This document shows, in pieces, positions 26,571 to 37,421 of a stretch of DNA of 64,000 nt. The notes below the pieces were generated by a model. It was not told the DNA's origin and ran no database searches. It worked only from the letters and a program-made list of their open reading frames with translations. A program made the translations under genes and the position numbers. This DNA is from Omphalotus guepiniiformis. Lineage: Eukaryota; Basidiomycota; Agaricomycetes; Agaricales; Omphalotaceae. The DNA lies in contig JAQOOI010000061.1 of assembly GCA_028554645.1 (NCBI GenBank), positions 62,001 through 126,000 of the forward strand. The letters run 5' to 3'. Numbering within the stretch: the first letter of the stretch is position 1; each line of letters begins with the position of its first letter.

Positions 26571-26905
26571 AAGATACTAGCATCTTCAAGAAAGGTATTT
26601 TAATTACCATGACTGTGGATATGAAGTCGAACGTACCTGAATGCCTCAATAAATTTGCATCCCTAAAGGACGTGAAACTTGCAGGATATACGTGTCTCCT
26701 AGCCTTTCAAACCTATTAAGATAGAGTATGAGCTGAAGCTTTAAGTCCCGACAGAAAAGAATGAAATTACATACCGGAAAGTAGCAAGTTGGGACACCCT
26801 ACAAAATCAATGTTCGTGACAATGAAAAGGACAGGCGCATAAGTTTGTCTTTGTTGCTCAAGGACGTTGAGTGCACGGCATGAGCGGCACCAATCAATCT
26901 CATGA
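26571..26905. other. Intergenic region left of the transposon
   Basis: About 330 bp with the promoter of the 1085-residue protein. It ends with TGA (26903-26905), the left copy of the transposon's 3-bp target-site duplication. No gene seen. Confidence 0.6.
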
Positions 26906-26979
26906 CACCGGGAGCAAAGTCCGGGTCACCTGAAATGCAAGTGCCTTCGGCTCACGTTGTACCTCACGTTGTACCTCAC
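26906..26979. repeat. Left terminal inverted repeat of the transposon
   Basis: 74 bp, pairing with 37345-37418 with two differences. It starts CACCGGGAGCAAAGTC and passes into the subterminal repeat array. Confidence 0.9.
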
Positions 26980-27033
26980 GTTGAACCTCACGTTGAACCT
27001 CACGTTGAACCTCACTATATACCTCATGTAGTA
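26950..27033. repeat. Left subterminal 12-bp repeat array
   Basis: About seven units of CTCACGTTGTAC or CTCACGTTGAAC, the last ones decayed (CTCACTATATAC, CTCATGTAGTAT). Such arrays bind the transposase in CACTA elements. The same unit is inverted at the right end. Confidence 0.85.
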
Positions 27034-27235
27034 TAACAGTTTGAATAAAGCATATGACCAACACTGAATAGCATGGCCATTCACGGTCATATGTCTCAGA
27101 CGCGTCGCGACACGGTAGTAAAGACAAAGAACTTGCCACGCCATGCTGTACACACATGGTAGACCAAATCCATTGCCCAGTGCGTGTTCTCTCTCTCAAC
27201 TTTCACCATCTTGTACCTCTCATCTCTACTACACT

Positions 27236-29417
27236 ATGTCCTCTTCTCAGAATCCAGGCTCATCTGACTTGCCTACTAGTAGTGGCCGTGCTACGCCAGC
27301 AAGTCAGCGCAGAGTTGGGTCAACCTCACAGCTTCCACAAAGTTCACCAAAGACAAAGAAACCTAGAGCTTCATTGTCTGGTGCTGCTCTCGCCTCATCA
27401 TCTGGACAGACTTCGTCCTCTACGGCTCCTTCATCTTCAGCACGGTCTTCATCTTCTTTGGCTACACCAGTTACAGCTTCTGCCTCTACCTCTACATCAC
27501 GTCCAACCACTACACCATCTGGTCCTGCTCCATCACGTCCAACCACTACTCCATTAGGTCCTGCTCCATCACACCCAACTGGCACAGGTACAGGTCCTAC
27601 GGCAACTTTATTCTCCTCATCACAACCAACTGGTGCTTCATTCCCCTCACACCCTGAAGCTTCATCCTCCTCCTCACGCCCTGAAGCTTCATCTTCCTCC
27701 TCACGTCCTGAAGCTTCATCTTCCTCCTCACGTCCTGAAGCTTCATCTTCCTCCTCACGTCCTGAAGCTTCATCTTCCTCCTCACGTCCTGAAGCTTCAT
27801 CTTCTTCCTCACGTCCTGAAGCTTCATTCTCTTCAGCACGTCCTGAAGCTTCGTCTACAGGCAATACTCAGGCTGGAAGTAAACGCAAGAATCGTGATGA
27901 CTCTGATGGTAGTACACAACAACAGGAGCCTCAGGAGCAGGCAGAACAAAGTACGCCAGGGCCGAGCAAAAAGCCACGTGTGGATCCCCGTCCCAAAGCT
28001 TCATCATCCAAGCGTAAGGAAGGAAAGCAGCGGGATGTTTACCATATAAAGAAGAAGGTTTTGGGTACAGATGATGTAGGTGTTTTGCGGGTCAAGGTAT
28101 GTATCATATACATTTCTGTTTAGACATTACTCTTACGCAAGCACTATAGAATGCTATGGAAGTTCATATACGTCTTTTATGTGGCTCATATGATGCAGAT
28201 TCTGTACCTCCTTCACCAACAGCAGGCCAAATCTCCTCTTTCCAGGAGCGGTACGTGTTTAAACTATCATTGCATATCATCACTAACTCTGGCAAAGATT
28301 TGATAGACACGCTGATCCTTACAAGATTCTGAATGAGAATCTCAAGTCTGTCAATCCTAACAGTGTTACCGTCTTGGCCAAATTACGGGAAGTTCGACAA
28401 GTTTGTGCTTTACGCCGAGGTGGATCCATTGTCTCCAATATCGCACTTATCCCTGAGGACAAGCTGCGTATGATCCTCGGCAGTGTTCAGGAGATGGGTC
28501 TTGACACCTGGTGCCCTGATATCCTAGATGGTACACCAACATCCTTCTATAACACAATGCACGAGGCTATTGCTATCAAGACTTTTGAACAAGCGGTTCT
28601 GACTCACGCCTATTTGCACATGTCTCCGCCTCTCAACCTTGTTCAGGACACTCATTTCATGCAGCGGTTGTATAGGAACTACGTTTACTCCCGTATCAAG
28701 AATCTGATGATAAAGGAAACCAAACAGAAGGGAAGTGTTGCCTCTGACAATGCTCGTAACAAGATGTACAAGAGGAGAAAAGAGGTATGAACATTGTTCT
28801 CTTGTTTCAACACTTGTTTTAAAACTTGAATCTAGCGGGCTCTTCTCCGTCAAGAATATCTTCGCAAACTGGGCATGCCTCACCGTGTTCAACATCTTAT
28901 TTCTGAACCAGCATGTCACTCTGATGATGAAGAAGCACCTGACGGTACCTTTTATCGCCTCTCTATGCCTAGGCGCAATGCTCAGGCAGATCTATTTGTT
29001 CGTGAGGTTGATGGCGGAATAGAGAATGCTGCGAAAGTTGAGAAGAAGAAGAATGCGTACAAGCGCATACCTAGGGTTGAACATCCTGATGGTAAGGAGT
29101 CTGTTCTAGACAGTCTCCCTTCGCCAGAGGTTGCTCTTGATTGGCATGAACCTGAAGCATTCAACACCCTTCCTCCTCATATTCGTGCTCGTTACGTTGA
29201 CTCTCCTATTGCACTTCCTCTAGCTGCAAAACGTATAATGAATGATGATTGGAAGAAGAAGATGAGTAACAAAAAGTTTATGAAGAAGTACGGTGACGAG
29301 GTGAGAAAGCAATACCAGTTCCCAACTAAAGAAGAGATGGAGGCAATGGAGAACGGTGGCATGAGTGATGCCTTAGATGAAGAGGATGAGTCTATGGGTG
29401 AAGAAGAGACTGTGTAG
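27236..29417 (+). CDS. Transposon accessory protein with Ser-rich repeats and conserved helical region
   Basis: ATG 27236 (MSSSQNPGSSDLPTSSG). Exons end/start at 28096/28150, about 28,251/28,299 and 28,785/28,834, with the stop at 29415-29417. The N-terminal third is a disordered Ser/Thr/Pro region with about eight copies of a nine-residue repeat (PEASSSSSR). It is followed by a basic stretch, KKPRVDPRPKASSSKRKEGK. The second part is conserved-looking: VHIRLLCGSYDADSVPPSPT, LREVRQVCALRRGGSIVSNI, TFEQAVLTHAYLHMSPPLNL and KYGDEVRKQYQFPTKEEMEA, with an acidic tail. I do not recognise a catalytic domain. By position it is the companion gene often found beside the transposase in basidiomycete elements, perhaps a DNA-binding cofactor. 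That is an inference. Confidence 0.7.
27650..27855 (+). repeat. 27-bp coding tandem repeat
   Basis: About eight tandem copies of a 27-bp unit (CCTGAAGCTTCATCTTCCTC plus CTCACGT) encoding PEASSSSSR in the accessory protein. Copies are nearly identical, so copy number probably varies between insertions. Confidence 0.9.
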
Positions 29418-29540
29418 GACCATGACATAAATTTACTTCATTTTTCTTCATTTTTCTGGATTTGTATAATTCTATTCAAAGATTGTCTATCTATGTTTCT
29501 ACCATGTATATGTGTATGCGCTACATGAATATATATATAT

Positions 29541-30681
29541 CTAATCCAAACCACCTGCACGCTTTAACAAAACATGTTCAAAGAATATTGTCAATACTAC
29601 ACGTTGACCCTTGGGAGGTTCAGTGAAATGAGACAAGTGCTTGGTATTGGCAGCAAGCAACTGCCGTACGGTAGGCTTGACAGTGATGCCAACCTGAGGA
29701 AACACTGTTCTCCCACCTTCAAAGTGACCAAATGTATATATAAATGTTCTGGTATACCGGGCATCGTTGACATCTGTATGTGGAATTTCGGAACCACCCT
29801 CCTTCACAGCAATAGTTGAAGCGATACCTAAGCACTCGCTGTTAGCAAATGTTTTCATTGACAACAGCACCATACCTTCAAAGTCTGTGGCAGGACGACT
29901 GGTGTATTCACGTTGAAGGCCTTTTGCAAACACTGCGTAAGCTCTGAATTTGTTAGATAAGTCAAACACTGCATAGATACAAAGAAGAACGTACTTCTGC
30001 CGTCTAGCCCAGTCTTCCGGGAAATACTCCATCAGAATCCTTTTCATCGGCGCCAGCAGCAACAGTTTGACGGCATCCAAGAATTCATCCATGGCAGTCA
30101 AGCAAGCCTGACTGGGTTGGTGTCTTGTGTCCGCTGTCAGCATGGCTTTGGGGCTGTATAACGACCAGGTACCGAAGTGGAACGCCTGTGTACTTGATCT
30201 ATTTTTGTCGCCACAGCCGGAATGTTTAGGTTTTGTCTGATTGAAAGCCACCCATTTCTTCATGAGCAGGGACGGTGCGCGAGGTGACACAACGTTGGCG
30301 AAAAGGCCAAGCAGGAAACTCTGGTCAAGGCTTCCAGGGCCTTTGAGGATGATGTTGCTTGCTGTTTGCAGCGTTGGAAAGGTCCGGTAATCCGTGGTGT
30401 ATTTAGTCTCTGTGACTGTCCTGACGTTGGCCTGATGCTTGGAGACCCCAACAAAGTCTGGCGGAAACTCGTCCGTGGTAAGTGTTTCTACCACCAACTT
30501 CGTGAGTAGGGTCAGAGGAAGGAAGTAAAACGGACTCACTATGCTCTCTCAACCCCTGTTCGGCTCGCTGAACAGCTCTCCCGTACCCTCCGCAGGCTAA
30601 CCACTGCTGGACTTTCTTCGCGCGTTTCTCTTCGCTTGGTTTACCGCGACGGTTCCTTCGTGTACGCTGCGAGCGTGTCAT
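29541..30681 (-). CDS. TET/JBP-like 2-oxoglutarate/Fe(II) dioxygenase
   Basis: Probable DNA-base dioxygenase that oxidises 5-methylcytosine or thymine using iron and 2-oxoglutarate. ATG 30679-30681 starts a short basic exon, MTRSQRTRRNRRGKPSEEKR. An intron at about 30,434-30,583 (donor GTGAGT) leads to the main exon. The double-stranded beta-helix core has the iron motif PHTDVND (H-x-D, about residues 254 and 256 of the long frame), then FGHFEGGRTVFPQVGI, and the distal KHLSHFTEPPKGQRVVLTIF with the second iron His (about 304) and the 2-oxoglutarate Arg (about 313). Upstream are FHFGTWSLYSPKAML and FRAYAVFAKGLQREYT. The order and spacing match the TET/JBP family, which is expanded in basidiomycetes together with transposons. 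Stop at 29541. Small introns may interrupt the main frame, for example around 29,830-29,875. The catalytic residues are intact. Confidence 0.8.
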
Positions 30682-30857
30682 GGCATTGCAAGATCGAGAG
30701 GAAACTAGTTTTCGGGAGAGTGCGGATGAGCACGGACCTCGGTACGCGGCCATGTGACTTGATGAATATAAGTGGCTGATGACTGAGCTCTTTTTCTCTC
30801 AACAGCTGGCACGGCGTTCTTCGTCGCTGTCGATCATGCTTGCATAGCTGATCCAGG

Positions 30858-30881
30858 GTGCACCAGTGTACGCTGGTGCAC
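30858..30881. repeat. 9-bp inverted repeat upstream of the dioxygenase gene
   Basis: GTGCACCAG and CTGGTGCAC are perfect reverse complements around a 6-nt loop, about 180 bp before the dioxygenase start. GCTGATCCAGG occurs just left of it and again at 30,940. It may be a regulatory or transposase-binding site; function unknown. Confidence 0.5.
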
Positions 30882-31060
30882 TTGCCGCTGTTCATGATGT
30901 GGGGCACAGCGGTAACGCTGCTGTTGATCAGTCACCACTGGCTGATCCAGGATCCTTGCCCCCATCAACCAAAAATTCGAAAGGGTTCCGGGAAGGAGAA
31001 GGTGGGGCGTAAGTCTAGAGGTGCGCAAAGGTTCGTTCGTCGTTCAACGCTCGACTCTCG

Positions 31061-31105
31061 ACGTTCGACGTTCGACGTTCGTCTCCTTTGTCGCCAGAGT
31101 CTTGG
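31061..31105. repeat. Dispersed GTTCGACGTTCG repeat, copy 1
   Basis: About 45 bp (CGTTCGACGTTCGTCTCC, then TTTGTCGCCAGAGTCTTGG) nearly repeated at 31,984-32,026. The second copy breaks the kinase remnant, so this looks like a small insertion or filler sequence. Confidence 0.6.
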
Positions 31106-31682
31106 AATGTTATCTAACAACCCCTGATGAAAGAACGCGCGCACGCCTTGCTATCCTTCCTATTGCCTCCCGACCTTCATGCTGCACTCTCTCCTGACGC
31201 ATCTTCCCGTTCTGCGTTGCTAGAGTCGCTCTCATCCGGGCAGCTTCTTCGCAGACAACACCTGTCATGAAAACAATATAATTCCGCTCCTAATTTCCAT
31301 CGTCCGTACAAAGGTCATCGTGCGGATCCACCTCCACCTCCTCGTACTTCACGCCCTCAGGTTGCTCCCTCTACCGGCCCTTATCAACGTCAAGCTCCAT
31401 CAAGATCGTCGCACAACTTGAACACGCCTCCTCCTTGGACCCACCACGTCCTCCAGCCTCCTACACTCGAAGTTGATCTAGGATGAGAAGAGGGAGAGGA
31501 GGGAGAGGTTTAGGGTTATGGATTAGGATTGCTGAGGAGAGGGAGGATCAGGAGAGGGCTAGGAGGCAGAGGGAGACGATGGTTGAGAGAATGCAGGATC
31601 TTGAGTGCAGTTTCTCGTATAAAGGTACGTTGGCGTGTTTTATACACGACTGATCACTGAAGATACCTTTTTTGTTATTTAG

Positions 31683-31970
31683 ATCATACAAAACCTCGAC
31701 TCACTCCGAAATTCCGCAGAAAACACACTTGAAATCTGGATGCCTTACATCTCTCATTCGCTCTCTACTCTCCTCGCTTCCCCGCGGTTCACCCCTCAGT
31801 CAAACACTAGATTCACTCTCGCTTCGCGCTCACTTATGCTTCAAACACTACGTGCTGTAGCGTATCTCCATGAACACGGTGTCGCACACGGCGATATCAA
31901 ACCTTTGAACGTGCTTTCCACGCCCACAGGACGAGTGCAGATCGTTGATTTTGGCAACGCGGAAGGAAGT
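31683..31970 (+). pseudogene. Protein-kinase catalytic-domain remnant (CAK-like) inside the transposon
   Basis: An exon starting at an acceptor (TTATTTAG) reads LEIWMPYISHSLSTLLASPR, then LRAVAYLHEHGVAHGDIKPL, NVLSTPTGRVQIVDFGNAE. This covers the catalytic loop (HGDIKPLN for the usual HRDxKxxN) and the DFG magnesium motif. The wording is closest, from memory, to fungal CDK-activating-kinase-like proteins. After DFGNAE the frame runs into the GTTCGACGTTCG repeat. No ATP-binding loop is seen upstream, and only a doubtful RTRYNAPE near 32,360 recalls the activation segment. I read it as a captured fragment that no longer makes a kinase. Confidence 0.6.
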
Positions 31971-31983
31971 TGCGACGCTTCCT

Positions 31984-32026
31984 GTTCGACGTTCGACGTT
32001 CGTCTCCTTCGTCGCTCAGCGTCTTG
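31984..32026. repeat. Dispersed GTTCGACGTTCG repeat, copy 2
   Basis: Second copy of the 45-bp repeat, starting GTTCGACGTTCGACGTTCGT and ending CAGCGTCTTGGCA, at the point where kinase similarity is lost. Confidence 0.6.
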
Positions 32027-32424
32027 GCACTCCCTTGCACTCTTTTGTCTCGTCAATCAAACCCCTTAAATTCCGGCCTAGTTGACCAACCCTCGCCACC
32101 CCGACGCTGTTTGTGGCCTGACACTCTGTTGACTAAAGCCAGCGCTTCGGCTCCTCTCTTCTCTACATCTTTCTCACTCGTCCGAATTTCATACGAATTC
32201 TTCCTCTTCGTACTCGCTCGCGGTGACTCAGTATCGCGCTGGCGAGTCCACTGCTTTCCCTTCCAGCGACCATTCTTCTTCTTCTGATACTTTCCCGCAA
32301 ACCTCTCTCTCATGCCTTGACTCAAAATACTCCATCCGAAACTTCGATCGTTCAAGAACACGATATAACGCGCCCGAGTCACCCTCCCTCAACCACGCAT
32401 TTATCCTCATCCACGACTCTAAGA

Positions 32425-33804
32425 ACCCCCAAACCCATCTACTTATCCAGCTACTACTCACACGGCGGCGTCGGCGGCAGTACCCCTCCACAACGCCTAC
32501 AAACTCCTCCGAAAAGAACGAGACATCATATTCTCTTCTATGCGTATAGCACAAGACCAACTCCACGCAAGTGAAGTTTTAAGGAAAACTTTCCTCACTG
32601 AACTCAACTTTACTCGATCTCTCTTACTTCGATATACCGATAGTCATCGGAAGGAATTTAAACTTGGAGGTGTACGGTCCGAGGCGGACATTCAAGCACC
32701 ATCGTCGTCGTCGTCGTCGCACTCAGGTTACTGGCCTGGACAAGGAACCTCGGAAGCTCAGTACTACGTACCCAGGTTCAGGTGTACCGTGACGATGGAA
32801 TGGAGCTTCAGTACCCAACCCATGCAGCTGCCGCGCCGGATCCGGGGTCTTCTGCTGTCACGTCAAGCTCGTTGGCACAAGTAGTTACTGGCGGAAAAGT
32901 AAATCTTCATCAAGGTGAGTTTTTGTTTAACAAGTGTGGCGTGTTGATATCGACGATTCGAACTTGCAGATCCTTTCTCTCATACACACGCATATGGTCG
33001 TTCTTCGAATTCCCATGCCGTCCATCCTAAGGTAGTAGTAGCTTCGGATTACTATGCGACCCTGCATGCTACGTCAACGAACACCGTGACGTTGTACAAC
33101 GTCGAAGAGAAATTCCTCCTATCCCTGGTCATCCAAGTTCCTCAGGCTATAGTATCATCTCGATGTATGACCCCTGGGGTGAAGCGCGATTAGACTTGCA
33201 TGCGAGCAACATCAACGACGTCATCATGGCTTGGGGCCTTGAATTTAGGTCGAACCGGAGGGTAGGGTGTTCAAAACGACGACGAAGACGAAGACGATGG
33301 TTTCTTGGTGGTCCCCGTATGTCAAGAGGTGCGCCAAGGTACGTTCGACTTGTGATTTTCGACTTTTCTTTATTTGTTCATCCAACCGTTGGCCAGGTCA
33401 TAATTTACCGTCACGAACGAAACAAGGGCACACTCTAAATGAGACCGAACACGGAGCCTTCGTCGTCGTCCCTACCCCAACATCAGCTTCAGCAACCCCG
33501 ACGTTCCGGAAAGGTTTCAAAACTCGCCATCATGATCTTGACCTCGCTGCGCTCGCGAATGAATGGCTGCAATACGAAGCGTCTGGCATGCGCGACGAAA
33601 ATGAAGATCGTCCTCAACAACGTCTGTCTCGACGTCTTCTACGTCGTCAGTCGCAAAACCCGTCAAGGTGGATACACAAAAGTTGTTCCAGAATCCTCTG
33701 TCTGCACCTTCTTCGCACCCACCTTCCGATACCTCCTTGCTTGCCACATGAACATCAAGTCTTCCTCCGCAACAACCCTCACATACACCATCTCGAACGT
33801 CTAG
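32425..33804 (+). other. Host-like exon series (cargo) inside the transposon
   Basis: Unidentified coding-like exons on the plus strand with plausible acceptors and donors. A coiled-coil-like exon reads VPLHNAYKLLRKERDIIFSS and LRKTFLTELNFTRSLLLRYT, then GGVRSEADIQAPSSSSSSHS. Later come VRVYRDDGMELQYPTHAAA, HPKVVVASDYYATLHATSTN, ISMYDPWGEARLDLHASNIN, an acidic NDDEDEDDGFLVVPVCQEV and HDLDLAALANEWLQYEASGM. These are in several frames joined by short introns. No start codon or complete model is clear. The lack of transposon-type domains suggests a host gene fragment, perhaps fused to or following the kinase remnant. Confidence 0.4.
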
Positions 33805-34008
33805 GAGGTCTCAGGGCACCTCAAAATCTTCCCTGTATCTATCCCCGTCTGTTTGACGTGTTATGTTGCTTGTGTACTTCTACCTTCATCCATAGGACAT
33901 CCCTCAAGTTTTTCTCACCTCATCTTGTGTGCTTCATTGTTTTTGCTAGTGTAACTATCAAAATATATTGTTTAAGTATATTGTACAGAGTTATTGAAAA
34001 ACAAGAAA

Positions 34009-37000
34009 CTATCTTCTTCCTCTATTCAATGACCAGGTGATGGCCATTGTCTCCTGAGGAATCCCATAAGTGCCTGGAGGACGCTTGTATACAGCAAGAT
34101 GGCTAATAATATGACGAGGTTCAACAATATGCAGTATGTTAGAAAGCTCTTGTCTCACTAATTGAGACTGTAGAGCTGAGCATGGGCTATAAGAATAGGG
34201 ATTTTTAAGGCGCTGTGCTGGAGAGAGAGGCATATGTTCTCTGACAAGCAAGAAAGTCTTCATAATATTTGCAAGGGGAAGCTCCCAAATAGCCTCAATG
34301 CAACCAGTCCTGCTGGTAGATGCATGACCTTGGGGTAAATAGAAGTGAATGTGACTGCTTGCTTCTCTAGATTTCTTATGACTATAAGTCCTTCCATCAA
34401 AGTTGAAGTTCCCTGGTTGATGGGCACTAGTTGGTAGAATGAGAGTGTCTCTTGGATAAATAATAGTAGTATTGGCTGAGTGATACTGCTGGCCTGTCCT
34501 GTTCAAGTAATGCAGAAGAAAGTTGTATTCCTCTGTAGTGAAGAGTTTGCCCTTGGCAAGAAACTCTGCTACCTCCAAGTCTGTCATGACTTTTGGTGGC
34601 TGCAAAAATCCATATACATTTCTGGGCTCTAGAAGGGTGGCCAGTTCACTAGTAGCTGGATTTGAGAATTGTCTGTCATGAAGAATTGCATTAAGCTTTG
34701 CATGACGGCCTGATTGGCGAACCATTGTGTATTCCATATCGCCTATTTAAATATTGGTAAGTTAGTTGAAATATTCAAGATATTATATCAAACTGACCAA
34801 AATGATTGTTAGTTTTTATTCTTCCAAGATCACCATTCATTCGTTCACCTGGGAATTCACTGAGAAGAGATACTGGGCCCCAGAATTTTAACTGCTCAGT
34901 GTTGTGCATAGCAAAGTGATGATTTGGCATAGATCGGAAACCTGGATAAAGCTGTTGAATAGAAGAGCGATATTTGACAAAATGTGTCATATATGCATCT
35001 GCTTCCTGATTTGAGGTTGAGTATGAAGCAATGATGTTGGTAGATGCAACTAGGTCACAAAAACTCTGTAGCATCCTCCTTTCTGTTTCATTGCCATTCC
35101 ACCAAAGCTCTGGCATAACAAGTGGGAAGATAACAGTAAAGAGAACAAGGAGTTGATGTGCTTTGAGCTTTCCATGTTTAGGATCTCCAAGATTTTGAGG
35201 TGGGCGCTCAATATAAGTTGGGAGCAGGATAGCACCTATACAAGATCTAATACGTGCAAGTTGATTTGAAGTGAAGTCAAATGCATGGTCAAGATTTGCA
35301 GGCATATAGTCTTCATCCTCTTCATCACTGTCAAAGTCCAGATTTGAAAAGGGAGTGGGAGTGAGAGTAGGAGTGGGAGTTGAATCCTCCTCTGCTACAG
35401 TATCATCCTTCATTGTTACATCTCCAAAAATATCTGTAAGGCCAGAAGTACTGCCTTGCTGGCTTTCTTCATCCAGACTCTCTATATCTGATAATGCTTC
35501 TACTGTATCAGCATCAGAGTAATGTTCATCAAGAGTATTCTCTGTTATCTCCTTCAATGTCTCTTTTGAGCGTCCTATTCCCCACAGTGCCCTGAGTTGA
35601 TAAGCAAGAATACCTTCCAAAGTATTATGCATATAACCCAGAACAACATGCTGTACTGGATTCCAGTAGGGAATATCATGCATTGGAGTCCAACGAACAC
35701 CTGATTGCTTAAAGAGACGTTCTTTTTCAGCAATAGTAATAGCATGCTGCCATTGAATAGCCTGAGCATGCACAATGGCCCCATCCCGTAATTGCCAGCT
35801 TGCATAGTTCAAATCTTCAATATCACCTTTTAGAGATAGACAGAAGGAGCAGTAAAAATCTGCAGTGACTGATCCATATCCAGCCACTTTTCTACTTCCT
35901 TGGAGATCAGCAATTATTGGAATAACTCTTGCTGCAACCAAAGTACCACCTGGATAAGTATAGGTAGGCATATGCTGACCTGGAAGATTGAACTCCATGA
36001 TAGCTGCTATAAAAATTGCAAGAATATGTGGGATAGTCCATACTGTTGGACCATCAGGTGCTGGCATCATGCCAATAAGAAACACATTTTCAGGTAGAAA
36101 ACGAATTTCAAGTGGTAGATTCAAGCAATAAAGCACAATAGCACCACAGGAAACTGTTTTACCTAAAGATGATTATTAGAAATATGAATATACTTCAATA
36201 TTATTGTATACCTGCTGTTTTGTTTCCAAAAGGATTGAACCAATCAACATAGACAGAAAATACCAGATGATAATGAGAAAGTAAAAAGCTTCTCAGGCTC
36301 TCCCAGGCTGGGCTATCTTGTATATCATGCATACGTCCCTGATGTACAGGATTTGGATTGGTAAATTTTGCAAATGTTTGTGCTAAGCACTGATCAATGT
36401 GGGCACGAGAAAGAAAGTTTTGAAGCCAAGACCTAAATGTCTGTGTGGTGTATAGACATTTAGGAACTCTTTTAAAGCCTTGAGCTGTGTGCTTTGTAGT
36501 CCATAAATCTGTTCCACATGGCCTTGACCTAGGTGACTTGCGCCAGCTGCATTTTGTGATAGCTGTAGTAGCAGGGTACTGCATGAAACACTTTGGGCAG
36601 CAGAAAATGCGCACAAGGTCAGGGTCCAGACTATGTCTAGAATATACAGTGCGTATATCCAAAGGAAGATCAATCTTCACAGAGGTTGTTTGTAGATGAA
36701 AGCCAGCTCCTTGAAGTGCAAGATATATGAGTTTGAGTGAAGTGATCATGATAAGATGAAGGGATTTGAGCACAGTGCTAACAGTATTCTGACTAGCACC
36801 AGCACAGAGAGCTAACCAAGCAGCTAGCAGACAACACATGTTAAACACAGGTGCTAGGACTTGATAAAGGTTAACAGAGAATTGCTCAAATTAGATCAGA
36901 TTGTTTTCACATACCTAAGGATAGGTCAGGAATAGTAAGTTCCACAGGTTTTGGAGAAAGAGTGCTTCCTTGGGCATGATTGGCCTTGGTAGATTTTTTT

Positions 37001-37137
37001 GGAGACTTAGGTCTGGGTTCCCTCATATGTTTTCTTCTGGTCTGAGAAGAGACTAAACGCCCAGGCACCATAGTTCCGTTGTCCTCACAGACATGCTTGC
37101 TACAATTGTGGCAGATACAGATTACAGAGGGTTGCAT
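34009..37137 (-). CDS. Transposase, Tnp2/Plavaka (CACTA-like) family
   Basis: Catalyses cut-and-paste movement of the element. ATG 37135-37137. Exon 1 has a zinc-binding-like CICHNCSKHVC and the family phrase NGTMVPGRLVSSQTRRKH. Exon 2 (36.2-36.85 kb) holds the N-terminal region with CCPKCFMQYP, RDLASLLSRAH-type sequence and VFSVYVDWFNPFGNKTAG. The main exon (34.8-36.1 kb) has LNLPLEIRFLPENVFLIGMM, IADLQGSRKVAGYGSVTADF, the knuckle YCSFC, GVRWTPMHDIPYWNPVQHVV, LGYMHNTLEGILAYQLRALWG, an acidic insertion, and the C-terminal ELWWNGNETERRM and NHHFAMHNTEQLKFWGPV. The last exon stops at 34009. These blocks match the Tnp2/Plavaka transposases of agaricomycetes. No premature stop is seen within exons. 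Confidence 0.85.
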
Positions 37138-37267
37138 AGGCTTTGACTTGATGAAGCAAGATGGAAGAGTACAACAGGATCAGATAGGCCCGTAAAGATT
37201 GAGACTTATATTGATGATACGAAAGATGGATGACAAACACAAAACAGTAAAAACAAAGACAAACAGA

Positions 37268-37374
37268 CTACCGTGACCTACACCGTGAGGTACACCGTGA
37301 GGTACACCGTGAGGTACACCGTGAGGTACACCGTGAGGTACATAGTGAGGTACAACGTGAGGTATAACGTGAGC
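37268..37374. repeat. Right subterminal 12-bp repeat array
   Basis: About nine units of CCGTGAGGTACA, passing into the AACGTGAGGTATAACGTGAG variants next to the right end. It is the inverted counterpart of the left array; the inner units differ by G for A/T (ACGGTG versus ACGTTG). Confidence 0.85.
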
Positions 37375-37418
37375 CGAAGGCACTTACATTTCAGGTGACC
37401 CGGACTTTGCTCCCGGTG
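37345..37418. repeat. Right terminal inverted repeat of the transposon
   Basis: Inverted copy of 26906-26979 ending CTTTGCTCCCGGTG, followed by the TGA target duplication at 37419-37421. Confidence 0.9.
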
Positions 37419-37421
37419 TGA

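Follow-up and report, generated by a model that had tools for sequence, protein, structure and literature searches.

The stretch analyzed here, a 64-kb piece of the Omphalotus guepiniiformis genome (contig JAQOOI010000061.1; hereafter the window, to which all plain position numbers refer), contains a CACTA/EnSpm-like element of 10.5 kb at 26906-37418, which has CAC..GTG ends and is flanked by a 3-bp target duplication. The element harbors an accessory gene, a four-exon TET/JBP-like dioxygenase gene (TET gene) and an open, spliced gene for a Tnp2-related transposase. This order is the one proposed by an earlier reading made from the sequence alone (the sequence-only reading), but 2.8 kb of genome fragments separate the TET gene from the transposase gene. 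Further copies were sought in the whole genome (42.5 Mb in 80 contigs, of which those other than the window's are denoted C74, C20 and so on). Both ends of the element are CACCGGGAG, and its matching inverted termini open with CACCGGGAGCAAAGTCCGGGTCACC; a copy on C74 has the same ends. The duplication is TGA in the window copy and TCG in the C74 copy, which confirmed the CAC-ended element with 3-bp duplications described by the sequence-only reading. Thus, two copies with both ends preserved combine CAC ends with a 3-bp duplication, the criterion for EnSpm/CACTA elements, and a third copy on C20 keeps one end only. With up to three mismatches allowed, the terminal 32 bases occur at five ends genome-wide, all within these three copies. 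Weaker terminal fragments were detected on C77, C65, C14 and C31, and a relic on C79 holds pieces of the accessory gene; no TET match was listed for C79, in a search whose counts are lower bounds. The TET gene lies at the equivalent position in all three clear copies (window, C74, C20), which rules out a gene unique to one insertion. Clear copies of the element without the gene, named beforehand as a finding that would speak against a transposon-borne enzyme, did not turn up.

The transposase gene is spliced from four exons and encodes 989 amino acids without an internal stop. Its earlier designation as Tnp2-type holds through its relatives, not through its own sequence: exons 2-4 match no Pfam model and no PF02992 (Transposase_21) hit was obtained at the element's locus, but eight relatives in the genome with 30-37% identity exceed the PF02992 cut-off (best 5.7e-18). 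Among 120 listed public relatives, the closest is a metagenome protein with 62% identity; ten carry PF02992, all of them ranking below the best 36, and the organisms named are mushrooms (Lentinula, Rhodocollybia, Mycena and Pleurotus, for example), as would be expected for an Agaricomycete host. Due to the PF02992-matching relatives, the CAC ends and the 3-bp duplications, the element was assigned to the EnSpm/CACTA lineage in the sense of Kojima. A KDZ element was ruled out by the 3-bp duplication (7- to 8-bp in KDZ), the lack of a PF18758 match in the transposase and of any KDZ hit at the locus, a Plavaka element by the CACCG ends (instead of CATCA or TGT) and the lack of a PF18759 match in the transposase or at the locus. 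No viral contig was matched in the search.

On the minus strand, the TET gene contains a frame of 335 codons without stops (29541-30548), in which the motifs PHTDVND, GGRTVFPQVGI and SHFTEPPKGQR follow one another in this order, so that the iron/2-oxoglutarate motifs, their order and the open frame reported previously were all confirmed. In the preferred gene model, whose exons were drawn by eye from the sequence without transcripts, four exons separated by introns of 52, 51 and 48 nt encode a protein of 329 amino acids. Intron 3 is supported by the fact that exactly its 16 codons are absent from the three paralogue rows spanning the site. Because this 48-nt intron (29828-29875) is exactly absent from the three rows, it may have been gained or lost recently.

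The iron triad and the arginine for 2-oxoglutarate are present (H251, D253, H301 and R310). Tet_JBP (PF12851; E-value 1.7e-6, 27.8 bits) is the sole Pfam family listed for the window protein; two further families gave one chance-level match each (E-values 0.04 and 0.056) among four family members. No match was found in NCBIfam and only two weak ones in PHROGs (best 0.016). A search of 5.8 billion proteins yielded no homologue, neither with the single sequence (E-value 1e-3, 1196 candidates) nor with a four-row family profile (E-value 1, 5015 candidates). As candidates must have exact words in common with the query and be of comparable length, this search would miss distant TET proteins. A structure model of moderate confidence, guided in part by other TET/JBP-like proteins (predicted local distance difference test, pLDDT, 58), revealed strands of the double-stranded beta-helix. 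By VIA-align, CcTet, NgTET1 and TET2 ranked above AlkB and prolyl hydroxylases; in Foldseek the top 20 rows belonged to the TET family, followed by ALKBH6 with an E-value equal to that of the first TET2 row. Moreover, the region around HxD aligns without gaps to CcTet-like proteins. The TET/JBP-like nature suggested by the sequence-only reading is therefore retained, and membership in another 2-oxoglutarate family, which it had named as a refutation, did not emerge. Both the sequence and, with the guided model, the fold support a TET/JBP-family iron/2-oxoglutarate dioxygenase.

Counted from HxD, the substrate pocket positions +5 and +11 correspond to Asp256 and Thr262 in a provisional register obtained by gap-free alignment through the CcTet-like protein of C46. 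Both residues are invariant in the four aligned family members, in which HxD is HTD three times and HID once. According to the accessible parts of one structural study (PMC11040006), the first position is occupied by Asn1387 in TET2, Asp234 in NgTet1 and Asp350 in CMD1, the second by Thr1393, Ser238 and Thr354, respectively, and the first residue bonds N4 of 5-methylcytosine (5mC) and blocks N6-methyladenine (6mA). CcTet departs from this arrangement with Gly331 and Asp337 (PMC11040006). This pair (Gly or Ser at the first position, Asp at the second) was not encountered in the window protein, so that dual activity on 5mC and 6mA is not predicted; from its sequence, either a conventional oxidase of 5mC or an enzyme resembling CMD1 is to be expected.

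The copies of the element permit a look at selection. The TET gene is open in the window and in C74; the C20 copy has gaps in two codons. Between window and C20, eight synonymous and one nonsynonymous differences were counted in the TET gene (ratio of the nonsynonymous to the synonymous proportion of differences, pN/pS, 0.04), compared to 36 synonymous and 24 nonsynonymous ones plus one stop in the transposase gene (0.19). In the accessory gene, exon 3 showed five synonymous and no nonsynonymous differences, the last exon five of each (0.27). With equal rates, at most one nonsynonymous change out of nine in the TET gene has a probability of 6e-5, transition bias being ignored. Against C74, the TET gene showed no synonymous and one nonsynonymous difference, the transposase gene none and eight, together with one stop and a deletion of 307 bp, in keeping with the decay of this copy. 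Compared with five paralogue pieces, the window TET gene gave pS values of 0.79-0.96 and pN values of 0.19-0.28. The 8:1 ratio against C20 and the low pN against the paralogues show that the gene has been kept by purifying selection. The 8:1 ratio and the shared position in all clear copies also argue that it is not a chance frame.

CpG dinucleotides are unevenly distributed over the element. In the flanks, the observed/expected ratio reaches 0.95-0.96. Within the element, it amounts to 0.18 for the transposase gene, 0.58 for the accessory gene, 0.77 for the TET gene and 1.16 for the bay of genome fragments (0.91 for that of C20), and TpG and CpA are elevated where CpG is depleted. Three paralogous TET regions have ratios of 0.72-1.00, thus values like that of the TET gene also occur outside the CACTA element. 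For 13 transposase relatives in the genome, some of them near-duplicates, 0.36-0.95 was determined, compared to 0.18 in the element (34009-37139). Where window and C74 agree, C20 deviated by transitions at 15 of 223 CpG positions but at 31 of 2062 other C/G positions in three regions (odds ratio 4.7, p 1.4e-5). Conversely, six CpGs of C20 appear as TpG or CpA in the window. By region, 4/106 positions decayed in the TET gene versus 7/80 and 4/37 in the rest, numbers too small to indicate a slower decay of the TET gene. A C5-methyltransferase domain occurs at two places in the genome. Judged from these dinucleotide patterns, the element has evidently met methylation, in its present or an earlier host, and its parts may have been exposed to this pressure for different lengths of time. 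The low value of the transposase gene could reflect long methylation or foreign origin, and codon selection could also have shaped it.

Paralogues of the TET gene were found in five copies of a repeated unit (C20:723505, C59:582300, C75, C45 and C41) and on C76. The unit exceeds 15 kb and its copies are 95-99.8% alike where aligned with the first one; the units of C59 and C45 align over 12.9 kb at 97.6%. Protein identity to the window protein is 64% for the C20/C59 type and 61% for C76. Helitron_like_N was detected within the units of C45 (9.6e-33) and C76 (7.3e-21) and a PIF1 helicase in C45 (4.9e-15), the Helitron assignment being based on these genes. Hence, one TET lineage is common to the CACTA element and to Helitron units. 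The family further comprises a member on C63 (66%) and a fragment on C16, neither of which is attributed to an element. The idea that stops mark the roughly 60% identical paralogue copies as pseudogenes was rejected, since some of these stops lie in introns and exons 1-3 of C59 and C20:723505 can be read open; frameshifts occur in C45 and C41, and a single one in C75. A PF12851 scan of the genome (E-value up to 10) detected 17 places, three in this element, two in Helitron units and 12 others. Only one of the 12, on C46, scored above the cut-off; its protein is close to CcTet (E-value 4e-13 in PDB). Seven of them lie 2.8-5 kb from a KDZ domain (two on C43, the others on C34, C53, C19, C7 and C78). 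In a scan of 14 control genomes, E. coli also matched, below the cut-off. Within the KDZ-adjacent places, a second TET/JBP-like group of the genome (C43:58688, C43:78789, C34, C53, C19, C7, C78), the C34/C53 type has Asn at the position of CcTet Gly331 (HIDHGN).

Beside the TET gene, the element contains a bay composed of genome fragments. In addition to the C74 copy, window positions 31000-33900 match 16 other places in the genome with short blocks of 80-94% identity, one of them in the C20 copy, and selected blocks cover 2569 of these 2901 bases. The mosaic includes a fragment visible by eye that we take, from its motif, to belong to a protein kinase gene. The bay of C20 (C20:2326600-2329140) is a different mosaic derived from C18, C65 and C20:2010502-2012037, in which seven blocks with 89-99% identity account for 2379 of 2541 bases. 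At its six joins, adjacent blocks overlap by 0-5 bp (judged from table coordinates); overlaps this short would fit template switching during gap repair. The bay differs between C20 and the other two copies, the TET gene hardly. The bay would represent a Pack-TYPE-like site of copy-specific capture.

Expansions of TET genes in fungi were reportedly described by Iyer and coworkers as early as 2014. In the accessible text of Kojima 2025 (PMC12730594), TET genes are assigned to 11 transposon lineages, among them EnSpm, which has CAC ends and 3-bp duplications, an escape from methylation is proposed, TET-carrying EnSpm elements are given for Agaricus bisporus and Puccinia, and a transfer of TET genes between superfamilies is reported, with EnSpm and Helitron2 families of Agaricus bisporus. 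The sequence-only reading had considered a TET element with 3-bp duplications worth comparing with described cases; the hoped-for novelty is reduced by these EnSpm elements, with which the window element shares the lineage, the TET/JBP gene and CAC..GTG ends with 3-bp duplications (stated for the Puccinia families). It differs from the PE type of Agaricus bisporus, whose stated hallmark is HxE, by its HxD, and from the PU type, which is reported from Pucciniomycetes (PMC12730594, as far as accessible). With TET-carrying Kyakuja/Zisupton (KDZ) elements of the AG type and CcTet of Coprinopsis cinerea, it has HxD, the downstream H and R and the TET/JBP fold in common; what separates it from them are their 7- or 8-bp duplications and Asp256/Thr262 in place of Gly331/Asp337 of CcTet. 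The sharing between superfamilies recalls the TET-carrying Helitron2 of Agaricus bisporus (PE type), the paralogues in units with Helitron genes being 61-64% identical, although here HxD is found in the Helitron version as well as in that of the CACTA element. Plant Pack-TYPE or Pack-CACTA elements likewise hold captured host DNA fragments between transposon ends (PMC8903248, accessible parts). The element under study is, contrary to these, a complete fungal one with transposase and TET gene, and its fragments lie in one bay. In the literature, as far as its text was accessible, no HxD enzyme in an Agaricomycete EnSpm element was found. Thus, TET-carrying EnSpm elements are already known; new are the HxD enzyme, for which the protein search found no relative at the thresholds used, and its paralogues in Helitron units.

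Taken together, it is rather probable that an EnSpm/CACTA cut-and-paste transposon carries a selected, working TET/JBP dioxygenase gene, whose product would oxidize 5mC and protect the element. The enzyme would act on double-stranded DNA, pocket residue Asp256 bonding N4 of the base as do Asp234 of NgTet1 or Asn1387 of TET2, and the oxidized bases would afterwards be diluted or repaired. This may keep up expression of the transposase gene, or the usability of the ends, where the host methylates transposon CpGs; the enzyme may act on its own element only or on all transposons. The gene may have entered by way of the adjacent bay or from a Helitron, which is a guess, and would then have been retained by selection. 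Self-protection from methylation, already suggested by the sequence-only reading, seems the best explanation, and both the selection and the CpG data agree with it. Several points weigh against this picture. The PF12851 score stays below the curated cut-off of 34.9 bits, and there is no PDB sequence match for the protein or the four-row family profile. As six of 18 rows in the alignment of the guided model came from other TET/JBP-like proteins, its fold is partly guided, and a model from family rows alone was unusable (pLDDT 36.5). Profile comparison was weak with the KDZ-associated TET group (E-value 0.036, probability 1.4%) and modest, yet better, with a CcTet-like pair (E-value 0.0015, probability 17%). 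Replacing Asp337 of CcTet by Thr abolished 5mC activity, in a pocket without the first residue (PMC11040006, accessible parts), and Thr262 occupies this position, here paired with Asp256. Finally, the element kept losing CpGs despite carrying the enzyme, hence any protection is at best partial.

Instead of erasing 5mC, the TET/JBP relative might, like CMD1 or JBP, produce a hypermodified or oxidized base as a mark used by the element. All characterized TETs are distant from the family, without a sequence match in the protein database or in PDB, CMD1 turns up early in the Foldseek ranking (from rank 13) and has Asp/Thr at both pocket positions (PMC11040006, accessible parts), and Kojima considers such a role for the PU and PE types as well (PMC12730594, accessible parts). 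On the other hand, no base-modifying Pfam family was detected in the scanned pieces of the accessory gene (exon 1 and the last exon) and of the transposase gene, and a mark of this kind is considered unlikely, though worth keeping in mind. That the gene is a decaying passenger, one of many captured fragments, would agree with the fragments directly beside it and the gapped C20 copy, but it is open in two of the three copies and present in all, experiences purifying selection no weaker than that on the transposase gene and is hardly affected by the turnover of the bay, which makes this very improbable.

A service to the host, for example genome-wide tuning of methylation with the transposon as a mere vehicle, would agree with the 12 further PF12851 places outside the TET family of the element, only one of which exceeds the cut-off. 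However, every family member with resolvable surroundings sits in a mobile element (those of C63 and C16 excepted) and Kojima argues likewise for the described TET-carrying elements (PMC12730594, accessible parts), so that this view deserves even less credence. The lowest rank is given to an AlkB- or prolyl hydroxylase-like dioxygenase acting on RNA or protein: although the Pfam score is sub-threshold, the PHD2 and ALKBH3 folds lie only about 1-3 Z units below the TETs and ALKBH6 ties with TET2, Pfam lists no other 2-oxoglutarate family and the core around HxD follows CcTet-like proteins without gaps.

A more far-reaching proposal is put forward tentatively, its chances being judged somewhat below even. 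The TET gene may represent a fourth lineage of transposon-borne TET/JBP enzymes besides PU, AG and PE, which has a conventional Asp/Thr pocket and is passed between CACTA elements and Helitrons of a single fungal genome. Cargo would have been gained via a bay that repeatedly takes up fragments, and the CpG ratios would give the order of arrival: the transposase gene (0.18), the accessory gene (0.58), the TET gene (0.77) and, as the newest, the fragments (1.16; 0.91 in C20). A transposon carrying an eraser of the host's silencing mark would exemplify an epigenetic arms race in clear form, and the element makes it testable, with young copies at differing stages of decay and paralogues in Helitron units for comparison. 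It also provides a substrate prediction at residue level and a visible uptake site for new cargo. The coordinates of all features are compiled in the table.

Table. Features of the CACTA/EnSpm-like element (window positions) and regions of the Helitron units (contig positions)
Feature	Position	Strand	Basis or remark
Target-site duplication, left (TGA)	26903..26905	.	compared with C74 copy (TCG at both ends)
Left terminal inverted repeat, starts CACCGGGAGCAAAGTCCGGGTCACC; inner limit approximate	26906..26960	+	end search, five ends genome-wide
Subterminal 12-bp repeats; inverted counterpart at 37279-37361	26951..27033	+	
Accessory gene, spliced	27236..29417	+	exon 3 and last exon compared with C20 copy
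TET/JBP gene exon 4, HxD, downstream H and R motifs, stop codon	29541..29827	-	spliced model, family alignment
TET/JBP gene exon 3	29876..29943	-	spliced model
TET/JBP gene exon 2	29995..30487	-	spliced model
TET/JBP gene exon 1, basic N-terminus	30540..30681	-	spliced model
Bay of genome-fragment mosaic	31058..33867	.	matches elsewhere in genome; different mosaic in C20 copy
Transposase exon 4, stop codon	34009..34742	-	
Transposase exon 3, Tnp2-related part	34798..36162	-	relatives in genome and public proteins
Transposase exon 2	36212..36859	-	
Transposase exon 1	36915..37137	-	
Right terminal inverted repeat; inner limit approximate	37364..37418	-	
Target-site duplication, right (TGA)	37419..37421	.	
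Unit regions with TET paralogues	C20:716001-732000, C59:575001-592000, C75:511001-529000, C45:1-16000, C41, C76		

For the accessory gene, a Pfam scan of exon 1 and the last exon gave nothing above noise. Exon 1 contains a 27-nt (nine amino acids) coding repeat in about eight tandem copies (27579-27883) with RPEASSSSS-like units; in C74, the repeat is longer by 27 bases. The truncated end of the C20 CACTA copy (C20:2332141) abuts a different repeat, roughly 1.2-1.5 kb long, whose aligned parts are 92-98% alike. The same repeat interrupts the Helitron gene of C76 (C76:328736-330246) and adjoins the TET relative on C63.
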